From a virus, in IMG/VR virus record IMGVR_UViG_3300009124_000018, positions 1 through 53,862 of that record: a DNA stretch of 53,862 nucleotides; one strand, written 5' to 3'. A model generated the notes under the pieces. The model made no database searches. It was not told where the DNA came from and worked only from the letters and a program-made list of their open reading frames with translations. A program made the position numbers and the translations under genes. Positions 1,657-33,809 of this stretch are shown one piece after another (position 1 is the first letter of the stretch; each line of letters starts with the position of its first letter).

Positions 1657-1971
1657 ATGGCAGGTGTTACAAGATTAGGTGATAATAGCACAGGACATAT
1701 TTGTTATCCTGGCACACCACTTACAACCATCACCCCAGGTGCTGGCGGACCTGTGTATGTGAACAATGCTCTTGCAGGTCGTCTGGGAGATTTGTACACA
1801 GCACATTCGTGTACGACTCCAAATCCTCCTCCACCACATACTATCAGAGCAATTTCGAAGGGTTCGACGAAACTGACGTACATCAACGGGAAACCACCAG
1901 GCATTATTGGCGGGATTATCTCATGTGGAGACACGATTACTGTCGGATCTACGAATGTTTTTGCACCTTAA
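1657..1971 (+). CDS. PAAR-repeat protein, tail spike tip (T4 gp5.4-like)
   Basis: A 104-residue Gly/Pro-rich protein with the PAAR layout: an N-terminal RLGDNSTGH segment, three blocks of Gly-rich turns, and His/Cys residues available for metal binding (His14, Cys16, His50, Cys52, His61, Cys90). PAAR proteins form a small sharp cone on the tip of the central spike of contractile tails and hold a metal ion; T4 gp5.4 is the phage example and is about the same length. Here it is in the baseplate gene cluster, three bases after an unknown partner. Exactly which residues bind metal is inference. A 99-residue frame overlapping it in another phase is a shadow. Confidence 0.85.
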   Translation: MAGVTRLGDNSTGHICYPGTPLTTITPGAGGPVYVNNALAGRLGDLYTAHSCTTPNPPPPHTIRAISKGSTKLTYINGKPPGIIGGIISCGDTITVGSTNVFAP

Positions 1972-26002: not shown

Positions 26003-26212
26003 ATGAACAATGAATTAGATGTAAATGTCCTTATTGCTACCTTACAAAAAAAGGTAACTGACTTGACTCTTACAAATATTGTATTAGAGGCGAGAAATAA
26101 AGATTTATCAAATCGGTTAAATAGTATTATAGAAACAGAGAATGCTATAAATGGCAAGCAGAATCAAGTTAAAGAGATCCCTAACTCCGAACTCAGCTCC
26201 GACGACTTCTGA
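26003..26212 (+). CDS. Small coiled-coil protein overlapping the next gene
   Basis: A 69-residue, strongly helical protein beginning MNNELDVNVLIATLQKKVTD with heptad-like Leu/Ile/Val. The last 62 bases overlap the start of the 2,552-residue adhesin in another frame, an unusually long overlap for this window. The coding potential of the first two-thirds is convincing (a coiled coil, and a start just after the fibre stop). The C-terminal third may be shaped by the overlap. It could be a helper or attachment protein for the adjacent fibre; the function is not known. Confidence 0.7.
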   Translation: MNNELDVNVLIATLQKKVTDLTLTNIVLEARNKDLSNRLNSIIETENAINGKQNQVKEIPNSELSSDDF

Positions 26213-29200
26213 TCTTACAGATAAGGAAGTCGCCCTTAATATTGTCGATAGAACCCTATTTGTCAACAATGCGGGTACTATCGAGGAGATTGCCAATGCG
26301 GATCCGAACGATGAAAAAATCGTTCCTTCCATGTTTTCAAGTTCCATTACAGATGGAGTTGGAAACACCTGGTATGTTTCAAAAAATGGAACAGACAAGG
26401 CAACACTTGGTTCTGTAAATCCTAGACATGGGGAAACTACAGGAGCAAATGCTTGGGGTAAAACTCCAAGCACTGCTTTTCAAACTTTAAAGTATTGTTT
26501 GGATAATTATGCTCAATCTGGTGATACGATTTTAGTTTCAGCAGGAACGTTTGACGAAATTTTTCCATTAACAGTTCCTGTCGGAATTTCAATTAAAGGT
26601 GCTGGGTTAAAATCAACATTTATTAAACCTACAGTACCTACAAATGATCAAGATGCATTTTTAATTGAAGGTGATTGTAATATTGAGGATCTCTGTGTAA
26701 ATGATTTCTATTATAATTCTACAAATGATACTGGATATGCATTTAGATTAAAATCAACATATTCAGTTTCTGCTGACGGTAGAAGACCTTATATTCAGCG
26801 TTGTAGCGTAATTACTAAGGGTAGTGCTACTTCGGGGTCTGATCCTCGTGGATACGCTGCTGGAGACGCTGGTAGAGGTGCCTTAGTAGACGGATCAGTT
26901 GTTAATGCATCTTCTGATGAAGCAGCACTGCTGTTTAACGAGTGTACATTTGTTGTACCCAATTCAGTAGGTCTGTATCTCAAAAATGGTGCTCGTAGTG
27001 AGTGGTTAAACTCATTCACGTACTTTGCATCTGATAGTATTTTAGGGGAAAACCCTGGAGGATCTGGTTTCAAAGGAGCAGGAAAAACCAGATTAAAATT
27101 GAATAATGTACTTGGAACATTCAATGCTTCCGATACAATTACATATTATGATACTGATGGAACAACTGTGCTTGCGAGTGGCACAATTGATTCTAATGAT
27201 GGGACTTATGTTTATATCGATGGTCAAGGTACTGGTCAATTTGTTGAAGCAGAAGCAGATACTACTGGAAAATTAGTTACTGCAATTGGTGATGCTCAGT
27301 TAGATACTGATATCAAATACTTTGGTACAGCATCTTTACTACTTGATGGTTCTGGAGATTACCTTTCATTAGCAGGATCTTCCGATTTCGGTTTTGGTAC
27401 TAGTGATTTTACTGTAGAGGGATGGATTCGCCCAACAACAGTAACTGGAACTTTACATATTTACGATAGCAGAAGTTCTGCTGGAGATAGTGCTGGTCGT
27501 TTGTATCTCGATAACGGTCAAGTACGATATGCAGTTGGTGGTAGTGACATTGTAACTTCTGGTGGCACTACGGTTAGTATTAATACTTGGACCCATGTTG
27601 CAGTTGTTCGTAATTCATCAACAACTAAGATTTATGTAGATGGTGTTGAAAGAGGATCTGCAGCAGATTCTAATGATTTAGGATCATCAAGAGCACTGTA
27701 TATTGGTGCTAACTTTGGGGGATCTAATGCATTTACAGGCAATATTGATGAGTTTAGAGTAAGTAAGGGACTTGCTCGATATACTTCAACTCCATTTACA
27801 GTTCCAACTTCTGAGTTTATTGTTGATACTAACACACAACTCTTACTGCACTTTAATGGTCTTGACGGATCTACCGATATTTTAGATGGTAGTGTTTCTG
27901 TTCAAGATATTCGTTCATCTTCAGGTGGTACTGCTGCATATATTGGTCTTGCAGATTACACTGACTTTGGTGCTGAACTGCGTTCTATTGGTTCTGCATC
28001 CGTATATGGTGAGCGTGGTATTACTGCAGATGGTAAAGGTGTAAGATTACGTTGTATTGTTCATAACTTTGGTTATGTTGGAGTTGGAGATGATATTTCT
28101 AATGACATCTCTAATGTAAATCAAGCAAATGAAATTATTGAATCTAATGGTGGTAGAGCACTCTTCACCAGTATGGACCAAAACGGAGATTTCCGTGTAG
28201 GTAATGCATTCTTTGTAGATCAAGAAAATGGCACTGTATCGTTCGTTGGTGGAACTTCTGGTGGCGGTACAACCTTTGACCAGTTAATTGTTACTGGTAC
28301 TGGTAATACTACTACTATTCTCCCTACCAGCATCAGCCTAGGTAATCTTTTACTTTCGGGTAATACTTTAGAATCTACTCTTGGTAACTTAATTCTTGAT
28401 GCTCCTGGTGGTAGTAGTGTACAAGTAGATAAGCGTCTTCTTCTCGCAAATGGTACATATGATGTTCCATCATTAGCATTTACTAATGATAATGATACTG
28501 GTATTGCTAGAACTCAACCTCTTGCAGATGGTGAATTTAGTTTAATCTCCAATGGTGCAGAAAAAGTTAGAGTTTCTCCAGAAGCGGTAAACACATATAC
28601 TACTTCTAACTTTATTTCAATTGGTATTGGTCAAGATCAAGCTGATATTTCAGTAAGTCCAGTTGGTTCTCAATATCCACCTGGAACTTTCACAAATGTT
28701 CCTCTTTCTGGTGGTTCTGGAACTGGTGCTGCAGCAACAATTACCACTACAGCATTTGGTGGCACTATTACCAATGGTGGTAGTGGTTACACTACAGGGC
28801 AGCTAACAGATATTCCATTAACAACCAGTGGATCTGGAACTGGTGGTGTAGTAAATGCTACTGTTACTGGAATTTCTGGCGTTATCACTCAAGGTGGATC
28901 TGGATATGTTGATGGAACTTATAATGCAGTTCCTCTTCAAACGACTGGAAGTGGTCTTGGAGCAACTGCAAATCTCACTATTACTGCTGGAGAAGTATCA
29001 GAAGTAGTATTTGTTAATAGTGGGGTTGGGTATGCAATTAATGATATTCTCACTGTAAATAATTCTAATTTAGTATATGGAGATCCCCCACAAACTAGTG
29101 GTGGGTCTGGATTTCAGTTTGAAATCCAAGCAAACCAAGAAGGGTATGGTCCAGGTGTAGTAACTGGAATCACTGCAGTTGCTAATTGGTTAGGTACTGG

Positions 29201-32200
29201 ATATCAAGCAGGAGATACCATTGGATTAAATACAACTCCTGGATCAGGATTTGTATATACACTATCTTCTGCTGGTGCAATTTCTACAGTTGAAATTACT
29301 AATAGTGGTGCAGATTATGTAGAAAATGATATAGTAACTCCAGATGTCAAAGTTAGCACCACTAATGATGCAGTCAGTGGTATTTTACGTACAGTAAATT
29401 ACTATGTTGATGCAGTAGATACGGGTGGTGGAACATATGTGTTTACCATTGCAGATGGTCCAACTGCAACTCCAGTTAACAATCCCGCTCTTAGTTTACT
29501 AAGAAATACAGTATATAATTTTATTTTCCAAGATGGAAATACATTTGGAACATATCCACTATTATTCTCTACAGATAGTGGAAATAATGTTCCATACACT
29601 GCACTTAGAAATACTCTTCAAGATTCCCTTGGAGTTCAATTAGTAATTGATTCTCCAACTGTAGAAGTTGTAGTTGATGGTTCATTCCCTGCGGGATCTA
29701 TTGATATTACAGTAAAAGACGCAAGTAGAGCAACTGCTGGTGGATCTATTACAGGTGCTGGCACTTTTAGTATTTCTGCAATTTCAGGTAATGTAATTAC
29801 TTTAGATACCCAAACAGGCACTACAAGTAATTTATCTTCTGGGGATGTTCTTACAGTAACTCTGCCAACCACCATTTACTATTATAGTTCCAGTCAACCT
29901 GGAATGGGCAATAGTGCAACCATTGGATCTAATTATGGCACTGGTGCTCAAATTCAAGTTGTTGGACTTAACGATGGACAGAGCACTACAATTACAGGTT
30001 CAAATATTAACGCACCATCTATTGATATTTCAGGAGCGTCTAATTTTGGATCAACTAATATTACTGGAAACTTAAATGTTTCCAATAATGCAACTGTTAC
30101 TAATGTTCTTACTGCAGGAACTCTTGTTGCAAATACTGTTGTAAACCAGAGTGCTTTACAAACAACTGGTAATATTGTTCAAACTTGGTCTGACGATACT
30201 GATCCCGAAAATGTAATAACTTATACTAATTTTAGTGCTAAGGTAGACGATGATAACTTTAAGTATGTAACAGTCAATACTGATAGTTCTTTCTTTAACT
30301 TTGAAGTTGATGGTAAAGCAAAAGTAAGTAATAGCACTTATATTGCAACTCTTACAGATGCTAAAGTAGGTATTGGTGTAGAACCAACAGTTGATGAATC
30401 TGTAGATCCTCCAGTTGTTGGGGAGATTGGAGAAAAACTTGAAGTTGTTGGTAATGTAAAAGTAACGGGAACCTATAAATCTTCTTCAGGTGCAGTTGAT
30501 GCTCCTGATATTACTTTCCAAGATGATGAACGTTTAGGTCTTTATCAGTATAATGATGGTACAGATAATAATTTAGGTGTTACATCGTCCACAGGTAAAA
30601 TTGTATCTTTAAATGGATCAACATCAACGTTCCATAAAGATCTTCAATTTGATTCTTCATCTATTGATGAATTTACTCTAACTAACGGATCTGAATACGT
30701 CACAGGAGTTTATAATGATGTTGAATTCCAGGCAGGAACTGGCGGTGGAGCTATTGGTAATGTAACCATTGCGTTTGGTACTACATTAACAAATCCAGGT
30801 GCTGGGTATAGTGATGCTGAATACATCAATGTACCTCTTTCATATGCAGTTCCACCTGGAGGAAATGTAACAGGATTTACTAATCTTTCAGGTGGATCTG
30901 GTTATGTTGATGGAAACTATACTAATGTAGATTTATTTGGTGGATCTGGTGTTGGTCTTACTGCTGATTTTACTATCAGTGGCGGTTCCGTAACCAATTT
31001 AGTTGTAAATGCTGGCGGTTCTGGATATTCAAATACAGATACTGGATTGACCGTTGATCCAGAAAATGTTGGTGGTAGTGTTCTTCAAACAGTTACTATT
31101 ATTAATGGTGGAGGAAGTTACTATGATGGAAACTATACGAATCTTCCAATTCAAAATATTTCATCAAATGGATCTAATGGTACTGTTGACGTTACTGTTA
31201 CCAGTGGAACAGTAACAAATATTACTGTCAACAATGGTGGAGGTGGATATACAACTACTGATCAATTTACAATTTTAAGTTCTTTATTAAATCCCACTCA
31301 AACATTAACAGCATCAGTTACTAATAATGGATCTACTGATTATGTATTTACAGGTGACATTACTGGAAATGATCCATCACTTTCAGTTACTGAAGGAGAT
31401 ACAATTACACTTAATGTAAATGCCACTGGACATCCTATTCATATCGTATCACAACTTGGTCCAGGTGGATCATATGATGCACAATATGATGTTTCATCTG
31501 TAACTGGTCAGGGAACTGAAACTGGCACTCTTTTCTTTGATACTGCAGCACTTGATGCTGGTCCTGGAACTTATTACTACATTTGCGAAAATCATCCAAC
31601 CGCAATGGTTGGAGTAATTACAGTAGGTAATGCGACTGTTGGTAGTGGACTTGCATTTAATGCATCGACAGTATCTACTGGTGCTGGATTCTCTGTTGAT
31701 GTTGCATCTACTGGAACTGCTGGTGTAGAAGGAACTGGAGCAACAGCATTTATTTTAGTTGAGAGTGGAGAAGTAACTCAGTTCTATGTGACTAATCCTG
31801 GTGATGAAAATTATCAGGCAGGTCAAACTCTTTATGTTGCAACTGCTGATATGCAGTATTTGGATCCATTTGGAACTCCAACTCCAACAACTACTCCAAC
31901 TACAGAATTTAGAGTAGTTGTTGGAAATTCTGGATCAGTTTCTTTTGTAGAACTCACTGATACTGGAAATGGTTATGAGGTAGGAGACATCCTCAGATTA
32001 CCAGATACCTTCAGACCAACTACAATTGATTACGAAAATGGTCTTACAGCTGCCACTGGTAATTATATTTTAAGTGGAAATAATATTTACTTTGTAAGCA
32101 CTGGTGGAGTTTTAGCAGATCCTGCTCCATCACATACAACTGGTTCGGTTGCTAATGGAACTGCAATTTTAGATTTCTATAGTCCTGTAGGCATTGAGTT

Positions 32201-33809
32201 TGGACTCAATGTATCTACATTACTTTCTGAAAATACTATTCAAATTGATACTTCTGATGGTAAAATTACGTCTAAACAATTAGAAGTAACTGGCGGAACA
32301 TCTCTTCTTAATGAAGTTAGTGTTTCTGGCAATACTATTTCTAGAAGTGTTCCTGGAAATCTAGTTATTAATTCTGGCGTAAATGGATTTGTAGAATTTG
32401 GTGGAACTTCTGGTATTATTTTACCAAGAGGAACTACTGATCAAAGACCTTCTGCTGTAGCAGGAACAATTCGATTTAATAGTGAGGAGAATATTTTTGA
32501 GGGTAATAATGGTTCTGCCTTTGTTTCTCTCGGTGGTGTACGTGACGTTGACTTAGATACATTTATTAGACCCGAAACTGCTCCTGGTGAAGACGATGAT
32601 GTTCTTGAGTTCTTTGCGGGTGGAATTAATGTTCAAAAGATTGGAACCAATTTTGCAGAGTTTAATAACTTAACCCAACATAGGCATACAAATTTAAATA
32701 ATGTTTTCCTTTGGGTAGAGGGAACTTCTGTAGTAGCACCAACAGATCCTATTGTATTTGATCCATCTACAACAGTAGACGATACTGCAGACACGATTCT
32801 TTTTACTGCTCATACATTTATTGAAGAGCAAGAAGTAACGTATTCTAATGGTGGTGGTTCTGATATTACAAATCTTGTTGACGGTGTTAACTATTTTGTT
32901 CATGTTGTAGATGAAAACACTATTCAACTTGCAGGATCTACTGCTGATCTTGCAACACAAACATATGTAGATTTGGTTGGTACTGGATCGGGAACAACTC
33001 ATAGTTTGACTAAGGTTAATCCTCAACCAGTATTATACTATTATGGAGATAATGTATACTCTGTAACTTCATCTGGAACATTTGATGCAGATCCAGCAAA
33101 CTTCCCAAGTCATACTACAGGAAGTGCTACAAATGGCACTGTTGATTTAGATTGGGTTAGAACTATCTATGGTGATGTTACCATCACTTCCAAAGTATAC
33201 TCTCTATCCCTAGAAGAACTTAGAGTTAATGGTAGCATCATTGCATTTGGTGATTCTTCAGTATCTACAATTCTTAGTGCGGCATCTGATTTTAAACTTG
33301 GATTTAGAGGTGCTGCAGACGAATCATTAATCAAACTTTCTTCTAACGGATCTTTCGGAGTAAATACATCATATAGTTCTCAAACAGAATCGTATGTGAC
33401 TGTATTTGAATATGACCTTAAGAAATTTACTCTTGCTGATACAAGAGTAACTTCAGGAGAAGGTACAATTGACACCTCAGTTGGCAATTCAGTTAATATT
33501 ATAATTTCAGAATATGATTCAATCAATTCTAGATATCCTGCACATTCTGGAAAAGTCATGTTTGAAATTTATGATGATTCACCAACACCAAGAAGACAAT
33601 ATTCTGAAATATCTTTCTTATTAGCATCCGATGGAAGTGATATTTTCTACACAGAAAGTAACAAGATATATACAAGTGACCTATTGGTAGATGTTGCAGT
33701 TGATATTGTTAGTGGCACCAATAATATTGTAGCAAATATTGTTGATGTAACTGGATCTTCAACAGTTGTTTATACCATCAAGGTAGTTTCTCAATCCATT
33801 TTAACGTAA
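26151..33809 (+). CDS. Giant adhesin/fibre with beta-helix, LamG and cupredoxin-like domains
   Basis: A 2,552-residue protein. Residues 1-50 carry the short fibre-base module (MASRIKLKRSLTPNSAPTTS). Residues about 65-245 begin with NTWYVSKNGTDK and FQTLKYCLDNYAQSGDTI, a right-handed beta-helix (pectin-lyase-like) entry. Residues about 390-560 form a LamG/ConA-like domain (LLLDGSGDYLSL, then WTHVAVVRNSSTTKIYVDG). A degenerate cupredoxin-like stretch lies near residues 1085-1160 and a full copper-site-like one near 1740-1830 with His1764, Cys1812, His1815 and Met1819. About a dozen GG-x-GY repeats are scattered between 870 and 1960. It is probably a host-binding adhesin; the copper domain is unusual for a fibre. 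The ATG lies inside the previous frame, with no obvious Shine-Dalgarno sequence. Confidence 0.82.
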   Translation: MASRIKLKRSLTPNSAPTTSDLTDKEVALNIVDRTLFVNNAGTIEEIANADPNDEKIVPSMFSSSITDGVGNTWYVSKNGTDKATLGSVNPRHGETTGANAWGKTPSTAFQTLKYCLDNYAQSGDTILVSAGTFDEIFPLTVPVGISIKGAGLKSTFIKPTVPTNDQDAFLIEGDCNIEDLCVNDFYYNSTNDTGYAFRLKSTYSVSADGRRPYIQRCSVITKGSATSGSDPRGYAAGDAGRGALVDGSVVNASSDEAALLFNECTFVVPNSVGLYLKNGARSEWLNSFTYFASDSILGENPGGSGFKGAGKTRLKLNNVLGTFNASDTITYYDTDGTTVLASGTIDSNDGTYVYIDGQGTGQFVEAEADTTGKLVTAIGDAQLDTDIKYFGTASLLLDGSGDYLSLAGSSDFGFGTSDFTVEGWIRPTTVTGTLHIYDSRSSAGDSAGRLYLDNGQVRYAVGGSDIVTSGGTTVSINTWTHVAVVRNSSTTKIYVDGVERGSAADSNDLGSSRALYIGANFGGSNAFTGNIDEFRVSKGLARYTSTPFTVPTSEFIVDTNTQLLLHFNGLDGSTDILDGSVSVQDIRSSSGGTAAYIGLADYTDFGAELRSIGSASVYGERGITADGKGVRLRCIVHNFGYVGVGDDISNDISNVNQANEIIESNGGRALFTSMDQNGDFRVGNAFFVDQENGTVSFVGGTSGGGTTFDQLIVTGTGNTTTILPTSISLGNLLLSGNTLESTLGNLILDAPGGSSVQVDKRLLLANGTYDVPSLAFTNDNDTGIARTQPLADGEFSLISNGAEKVRVSPEAVNTYTTSNFISIGIGQDQADISVSPVGSQYPPGTFTNVPLSGGSGTGAAATITTTAFGGTITNGGSGYTTGQLTDIPLTTSGSGTGGVVNATVTGISGVITQGGSGYVDGTYNAVPLQTTGSGLGATANLTITAGEVSEVVFVNSGVGYAINDILTVNNSNLVYGDPPQTSGGSGFQFEIQANQEGYGPGVVTGITAVANWLGTGYQAGDTIGLNTTPGSGFVYTLSSAGAISTVEITNSGADYVENDIVTPDVKVSTTNDAVSGILRTVNYYVDAVDTGGGTYVFTIADGPTATPVNNPALSLLRNTVYNFIFQDGNTFGTYPLLFSTDSGNNVPYTALRNTLQDSLGVQLVIDSPTVEVVVDGSFPAGSIDITVKDASRATAGGSITGAGTFSISAISGNVITLDTQTGTTSNLSSGDVLTVTLPTTIYYYSSSQPGMGNSATIGSNYGTGAQIQVVGLNDGQSTTITGSNINAPSIDISGASNFGSTNITGNLNVSNNATVTNVLTAGTLVANTVVNQSALQTTGNIVQTWSDDTDPENVITYTNFSAKVDDDNFKYVTVNTDSSFFNFEVDGKAKVSNSTYIATLTDAKVGIGVEPTVDESVDPPVVGEIGEKLEVVGNVKVTGTYKSSSGAVDAPDITFQDDERLGLYQYNDGTDNNLGVTSSTGKIVSLNGSTSTFHKDLQFDSSSIDEFTLTNGSEYVTGVYNDVEFQAGTGGGAIGNVTIAFGTTLTNPGAGYSDAEYINVPLSYAVPPGGNVTGFTNLSGGSGYVDGNYTNVDLFGGSGVGLTADFTISGGSVTNLVVNAGGSGYSNTDTGLTVDPENVGGSVLQTVTIINGGGSYYDGNYTNLPIQNISSNGSNGTVDVTVTSGTVTNITVNNGGGGYTTTDQFTILSSLLNPTQTLTASVTNNGSTDYVFTGDITGNDPSLSVTEGDTITLNVNATGHPIHIVSQLGPGGSYDAQYDVSSVTGQGTETGTLFFDTAALDAGPGTYYYICENHPTAMVGVITVGNATVGSGLAFNASTVSTGAGFSVDVASTGTAGVEGTGATAFILVESGEVTQFYVTNPGDENYQAGQTLYVATADMQYLDPFGTPTPTTTPTTEFRVVVGNSGSVSFVELTDTGNGYEVGDILRLPDTFRPTTIDYENGLTAATGNYILSGNNIYFVSTGGVLADPAPSHTTGSVANGTAILDFYSPVGIEFGLNVSTLLSENTIQIDTSDGKITSKQLEVTGGTSLLNEVSVSGNTISRSVPGNLVINSGVNGFVEFGGTSGIILPRGTTDQRPSAVAGTIRFNSEENIFEGNNGSAFVSLGGVRDVDLDTFIRPETAPGEDDDVLEFFAGGINVQKIGTNFAEFNNLTQHRHTNLNNVFLWVEGTSVVAPTDPIVFDPSTTVDDTADTILFTAHTFIEEQEVTYSNGGGSDITNLVDGVNYFVHVVDENTIQLAGSTADLATQTYVDLVGTGSGTTHSLTKVNPQPVLYYYGDNVYSVTSSGTFDADPANFPSHTTGSATNGTVDLDWVRTIYGDVTITSKVYSLSLEELRVNGSIIAFGDSSVSTILSAASDFKLGFRGAADESLIKLSSNGSFGVNTSYSSQTESYVTVFEYDLKKFTLADTRVTSGEGTIDTSVGNSVNIIISEYDSINSRYPAHSGKVMFEIYDDSPTPRRQYSEISFLLASDGSDIFYTESNKIYTSDLLVDVAVDIVSGTNNIVANIVDVTGSSTVVYTIKVVSQSILT

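Follow-up and report, generated by a model that had tools for sequence, protein, structure and literature searches.

The tail machinery of a marine T4-like phage carries what is almost certainly a cupredoxin domain with an intact type 1 copper site (H1761, C1812, H1815, and M1819), located at aa 1714-1829 of a 2,552-aa protein encoded in the window, by which we mean the whole stretch of 53,862 nucleotides analyzed here. The cupredoxin fold is known; its place in a virion protein is new. We found no description of cupredoxin, plastocyanin-like, or blue copper domains in virions or phage tails in the open-access PMC literature, and a soluble phage plastocyanin (petE) was already known (PMC2984593). 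The ORF, as read in the window, and its residue numbers agree with those of the first-pass annotation, with GHPIHI at aa 1760-1765 and YYYICENHPTAM at aa 1808-1819:

26151..33809, plus strand: tail/baseplate-associated fiber protein carrying the cupredoxin (ORF, PHROG, P-HM1 relative)
27345..27767, plus strand: Laminin G-like/ConA-like lectin domain, aa 399-539 of the same ORF (Pfam Laminin_G_3, E 3.7e-25)
31290..31637, plus strand: cupredoxin domain with intact site, aa 1714-1829 (Pfam PF00127, AF2, Foldseek)

The 2,552-aa ORF matches baseplate wedge subunit families of PHROG (E values down to 1e-236), and its nearest annotated relatives belong to the Prochlorococcus phages P-HM1, P-HM2, and MED4-213. 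The closest one, annotated as "gp7 baseplate wedge subunit" in P-HM1 (42% over the first 999 columns), itself contains a cupredoxin domain (GHPLEF...CQTHGGGM). The flanking ORFs are T4-like baseplate wedge, tail fiber, and neck proteins. The assignment of the window to a marine T4-like phage, with the domain sitting inside a tail/baseplate protein, is therefore supported, and the initial reading of a cupredoxin within a virion-type protein holds in this genomic context. The lectin domain of the same protein is likely a carbohydrate-binding module. In another region of the window (1657-1971), a small ORF starting MAGVTRLGDNSTGHICYPG resembles, by eye, a PAAR spike-tip protein.

Several methods converge on the same fold. 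The domain alone matched Pfam PF00127 (Copper-bind) with an E value of 3.4e-7 and 31.0 bits, and the full protein did so with 24.9 bits, against a cutoff of 21.2. When the protein sequence was shuffled 20,000 times, a loose version of the ligand pattern (H-x44..54-C-x2..5-H-x2..6-M) appeared in only 4 of the shuffles, which, together with the Pfam score, indicates a match beyond chance. A single-sequence AlphaFold run gave a poor model (pLDDT 44.8), and AlphaFold2 with a 72-sequence alignment (A2, whose members are 32-51% identical to the window copy) gave an all-beta model with a pLDDT of 96.5 and a pTM of 0.89. Foldseek searches of the PDB with this model returned CuNiR (6.7e-6) and rusticyanin (1.6e-5) as the best structural matches, along with azurin and plastocyanin, all with a probability of 1.00 and with modest TM-scores (best TMq of 0.61 among the matches listed). 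The structure prediction that had been proposed as a check thus yielded the Greek-key cupredoxin fold, as judged by AlphaFold2 and Foldseek. When its profile was compared with that of six type 1 copper proteins (probability 98.2, E 4.9e-14), the Cys, His, and Met fell in register, with the first-His region offset relative to plastocyanin. Structural matches in BFVD include a blue copper protein of Fadolivirus and "beta-sandwich" proteins of Marseillevirus- and pithovirus-like type.

The only His, Cys, and Met residues within aa 1741-1840 are five, and they were assigned as follows:

31431..31433, plus strand: His1761, predicted first equatorial ligand (His in 143/146 unique copies, 98%; invariant in alignments A1 and A2)
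31440..31442, plus strand: His1764, non-ligand (column W/Y/F/R/L in relatives)
31584..31586, plus strand: Cys1812, predicted thiolate ligand and sole Cys of the domain (Cys in 144/146; invariant in A2)
31593..31595, plus strand: His1815, predicted second equatorial ligand (His in 144/145)
31605..31607, plus strand: Met1819, predicted axial ligand (Met in 144/145)

The relatives behind these counts were gathered from viral contigs, phage records, and cellular genomes (the diversity of alignment A1 ruled it out for pattern scanning). The ligand set of type 1 copper cupredoxins (His, Cys, His, Met) is conserved throughout, with each of the four columns at 98 to 99% among 146 unique copies, values that are somewhat inflated because most loci were found by peptide patterns, several of them covering ligand residues, and that give no formal probability, as the copies are related by descent and phylogenetically non-independent. 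Less biased support comes from the copies at the C terminus of the cyanophage protein gp9, which were found by tblastn and have all four ligands in the 12 phages inspected (loci L182-L190 and L027-L029), and from further copies, most of them intact, that share a contig with a seed match but are distinct from it. The search of other cyanophages for the four ligands, suggested at the outset, therefore shows them to be widespread.

Three of the four ligands first proposed (Cys1812, His1815, and Met1819) stand, and the fourth has to be replaced. The first-pass annotation had taken His1764 as the first ligand, a position that is mostly Trp (70) or Tyr (45) among the 146 unique copies; since H1761 is the conserved residue, the ligand is the His in GHP. 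GHPIHI aligns with GHSFDI of rusticyanin, whose sequence was confirmed and in which the His directly after the Gly is the copper ligand. With H1761 as the first ligand, the His-Cys distance becomes 51 instead of the 48 originally given, for a family mode of 46-47, and the window copy exceeds almost all relatives by one residue in its His-Met loop. We rejected disulfide formation by C1812, as it is the sole Cys of the domain; exactly one Cys is present in 104 of the 146 copies.

The domain shares with type 1 cupredoxins (rusticyanin, plastocyanin, amicyanin, pseudoazurin, and CuNiR; PF00127) the Greek-key beta-sandwich and the His followed by a Cys-x2-His-x2..4-Met loop, and its GHxFxI...TYYYxC pattern is closest to rusticyanin. 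It differs from them in being embedded in a virion protein without a signal peptide and in the residue after the first ligand His, which is Pro in this family (142 of 143 copies) where the known cupredoxins in the alignment have Asn or Ser. Pro is never found at Cys+2 in the family, and we infer that this placement keeps one backbone NH-to-sulfur hydrogen bond, on the opposite side from that of plastocyanin. The original description as "plastocyanin-like" is right as far as the cupredoxin family and fold are concerned, and a special link to plastocyanin is not borne out. The NCBIfam models for plastocyanin, pseudoazurin, and amicyanin all gave weak matches far below their equivalog cutoffs (25.7 bits versus 87.85 for plastocyanin, TIGR02656), which indicates a cupredoxin that is none of these three. 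Plastocyanin has Pro-His-Asn at the first ligand and Cys-x-Pro-His in the loop, whereas the window copy has Gly-His-Pro and Cys-Glu-Asn-His. Recent capture of a host or phage petE plastocyanin was also rejected, given these scores and the structural preference for CuNiR and rusticyanin.

The domain family was found in at least 353 of 50,697 phage records, chiefly cyanophages, for whose tail and baseplate proteins no metal role seems to have been reported; searches of phage records at the DNA level gave no match. In T4-like cyanophages, the domain is commonly the C terminus of gp9, the baseplate wedge-tail fiber connector (phrog_677), whose N terminus, tested in P-RSM4, matches T4 gp9 and gp10. 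Residues 330-408 of P-RSM4 gp9 align with aa 1740-1825 of the window protein (38%, E 4e-6). Significant alignment between gp9 and the window ORF is confined to the cupredoxin region, with the N-terminal region of gp9 absent, and the domain that ends a 400-aa protein in gp9 is internal in the 2,552-aa protein of the window. The best explanation is that the domain family has been inserted repeatedly into exposed tail, fiber, and baseplate proteins of marine phages. Phages of Pelagibacter, Methylophilales, and an Actinomycetia bacterium carry it too, as does a podovirus, so the tie to phages of photosynthetic hosts that was first drawn is needless. Outside phages, matches were found in 12 of 296 Bacteroidota genomes, in proteins of the same domain family (HPF..C..H..M). 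Unlike the window protein, those inspected have N-terminal signal or lipoprotein-like sequences that predict export, and one (L031) has a type IX secretion tail (Por_Secre_tail). Some of the Bacteroidota loci with this cupredoxin family (L031 1860-2921 and L196-L198) have His-rich repeats (SHPAHIH) alongside.

Copies that have lost the site help to decide what the ligands are for. Among 172 unique copies of nearly full length, 162 have every ligand motif, and in the remaining 10 the Cys-His-Met loop motif is missing entirely. Loss of the Cys goes with loss of the His and Met in that loop, so these ligands behave as a unit; the coupling is claimed for the loop only, because the regular expression for the first His also counted unrelated HG/HL in degenerate copies. 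The protein downstream of gp9 (T4-GC 399) has an intact cupredoxin followed by a copy with the site lost in each phage compared (loci L182, L184, L186, L187, L189, L190, and L027). As the fold survives without ligands beside copies that keep all of them, the ligands appear to be kept for a metal and not for folding. The window ORF may contain such a degenerate copy as well:

29388..29933, plus strand: probable second cupredoxin-like domain, aa 1080-1261, with degenerate site (TYPLLF, IYYYSSSQPGM; weak profile match)

This region matched with an i-E value of 0.0047 and 7.7 bits in a profile search covering the proteins of the window, and it resembles the ligand-poor copies of other phage proteins. 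A tblastn search of phage records with it gave no match, so the second domain is tentative, and its reading as a cupredoxin copy that lost its site must be taken in the same way.

Such degenerate copies, probably including the one in the window ORF, are what the main rival explanation draws on, namely, that the domain is a beta-sandwich scaffold alone, an Ig-like spacer or binding module whose site is empty or holds any metal present. Weak matches of the domain to Ig-like Pfam families and the copper-poor cyanobacterial cytosol speak for it as well. Nevertheless, we consider it unlikely, as the conservation of the four ligands equals or exceeds that of nearly every core residue, and the loss of the Cys-His-Met loop as a unit would be needless in a pure scaffold.

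The soft axial Met suits copper better than Zn or Fe, and with the His-Cys-His-Met set it makes copper the natural reading. Judging from the residues conserved, the site probably binds copper in the virion, and the predicted export of the Bacteroidota relatives counts in favor of a copper site. As a whole explanation, we lean toward the domain being a copper-binding structural/adhesive module of marine phage tail proteins. The virion protein would fold in a copper-poor cytosol and acquire Cu(I)/Cu(II) once the cell has lysed or close to the host envelope, and the bound copper would then stiffen and protect the domain as a metal-locked structural or adhesive module, serving an almost cysteine-free fiber where disulfides could not. 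That the role is such a structural lock, instead of redox chemistry or metal delivery, is a tentative choice, a little short of an even chance.

Delivery would mean that a copper-loaded fiber engages metal-uptake or metal-binding structures of the host surface, as a copper counterpart of the Ferrojan Horse hypothesis (cited in PMC5797145). Iron-binding HxH sites have been reported in phage tail fibers, those of cyanophages included (PMC11705849), and the cupredoxin fiber gene of P-SSM2 lies three genes upstream of piuC. The HxH fibers (T4 gp37 and Alteromonas phage R22Y; PMC11705849) are likewise cases of a metal site proposed in a phage fiber, but theirs is octahedral iron, without Cys or Met and without a cupredoxin fold. 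Repeated HxH motifs were not found in the window protein: the His residues of the domain are 1761/1764 (HxxH) and 1815, and the sole HxH of the ORF (2177/2179) is outside the domain. Delivery seems improbable, given that none of these phages is known to use a copper receptor and that the cupredoxin copies often lie in the gp9 connector or in the interior of proteins and not at tips.

A redox switch, by which the copper site would swap electrons with the host surface or sense its redox state and so alter the fiber-baseplate joint, is slightly more improbable still. It would fit the intact site at the baseplate-fiber connector of cyanophages, the light-dependent adsorption of several cyanomyoviruses (PMC2984593, PMC9229316), and the distinctive second sphere (the His-Pro pair and a Cys+2 position that is never Pro), which may tune the potential. 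Against this, the domain is also found in phages of heterotrophs and in exported Bacteroidota proteins, and neither a partner protein nor an electron path is known. The most specific form of the idea, that a redox-active type 1 copper at the joint (gp9 and its neighbors, the window protein included) gates adsorption or baseplate triggering, is the least probable of all; if it were true, infection would be tied to light or to the redox chemistry of the host surface.

For the preferred reading as a copper-binding structural/adhesive module, the consequences reach beyond the window. One result is a fold for the C-terminal domain of gp9, a protein conserved in cyanophages. A type 1 copper site conserved in the tail apparatus of some of the most abundant marine phages would represent a new class of virion metal center and would offer a concrete, color-based way of testing whether cyanophage adsorption or stability depends on metal, and marine phage particles would become possible copper ligands in seawater.
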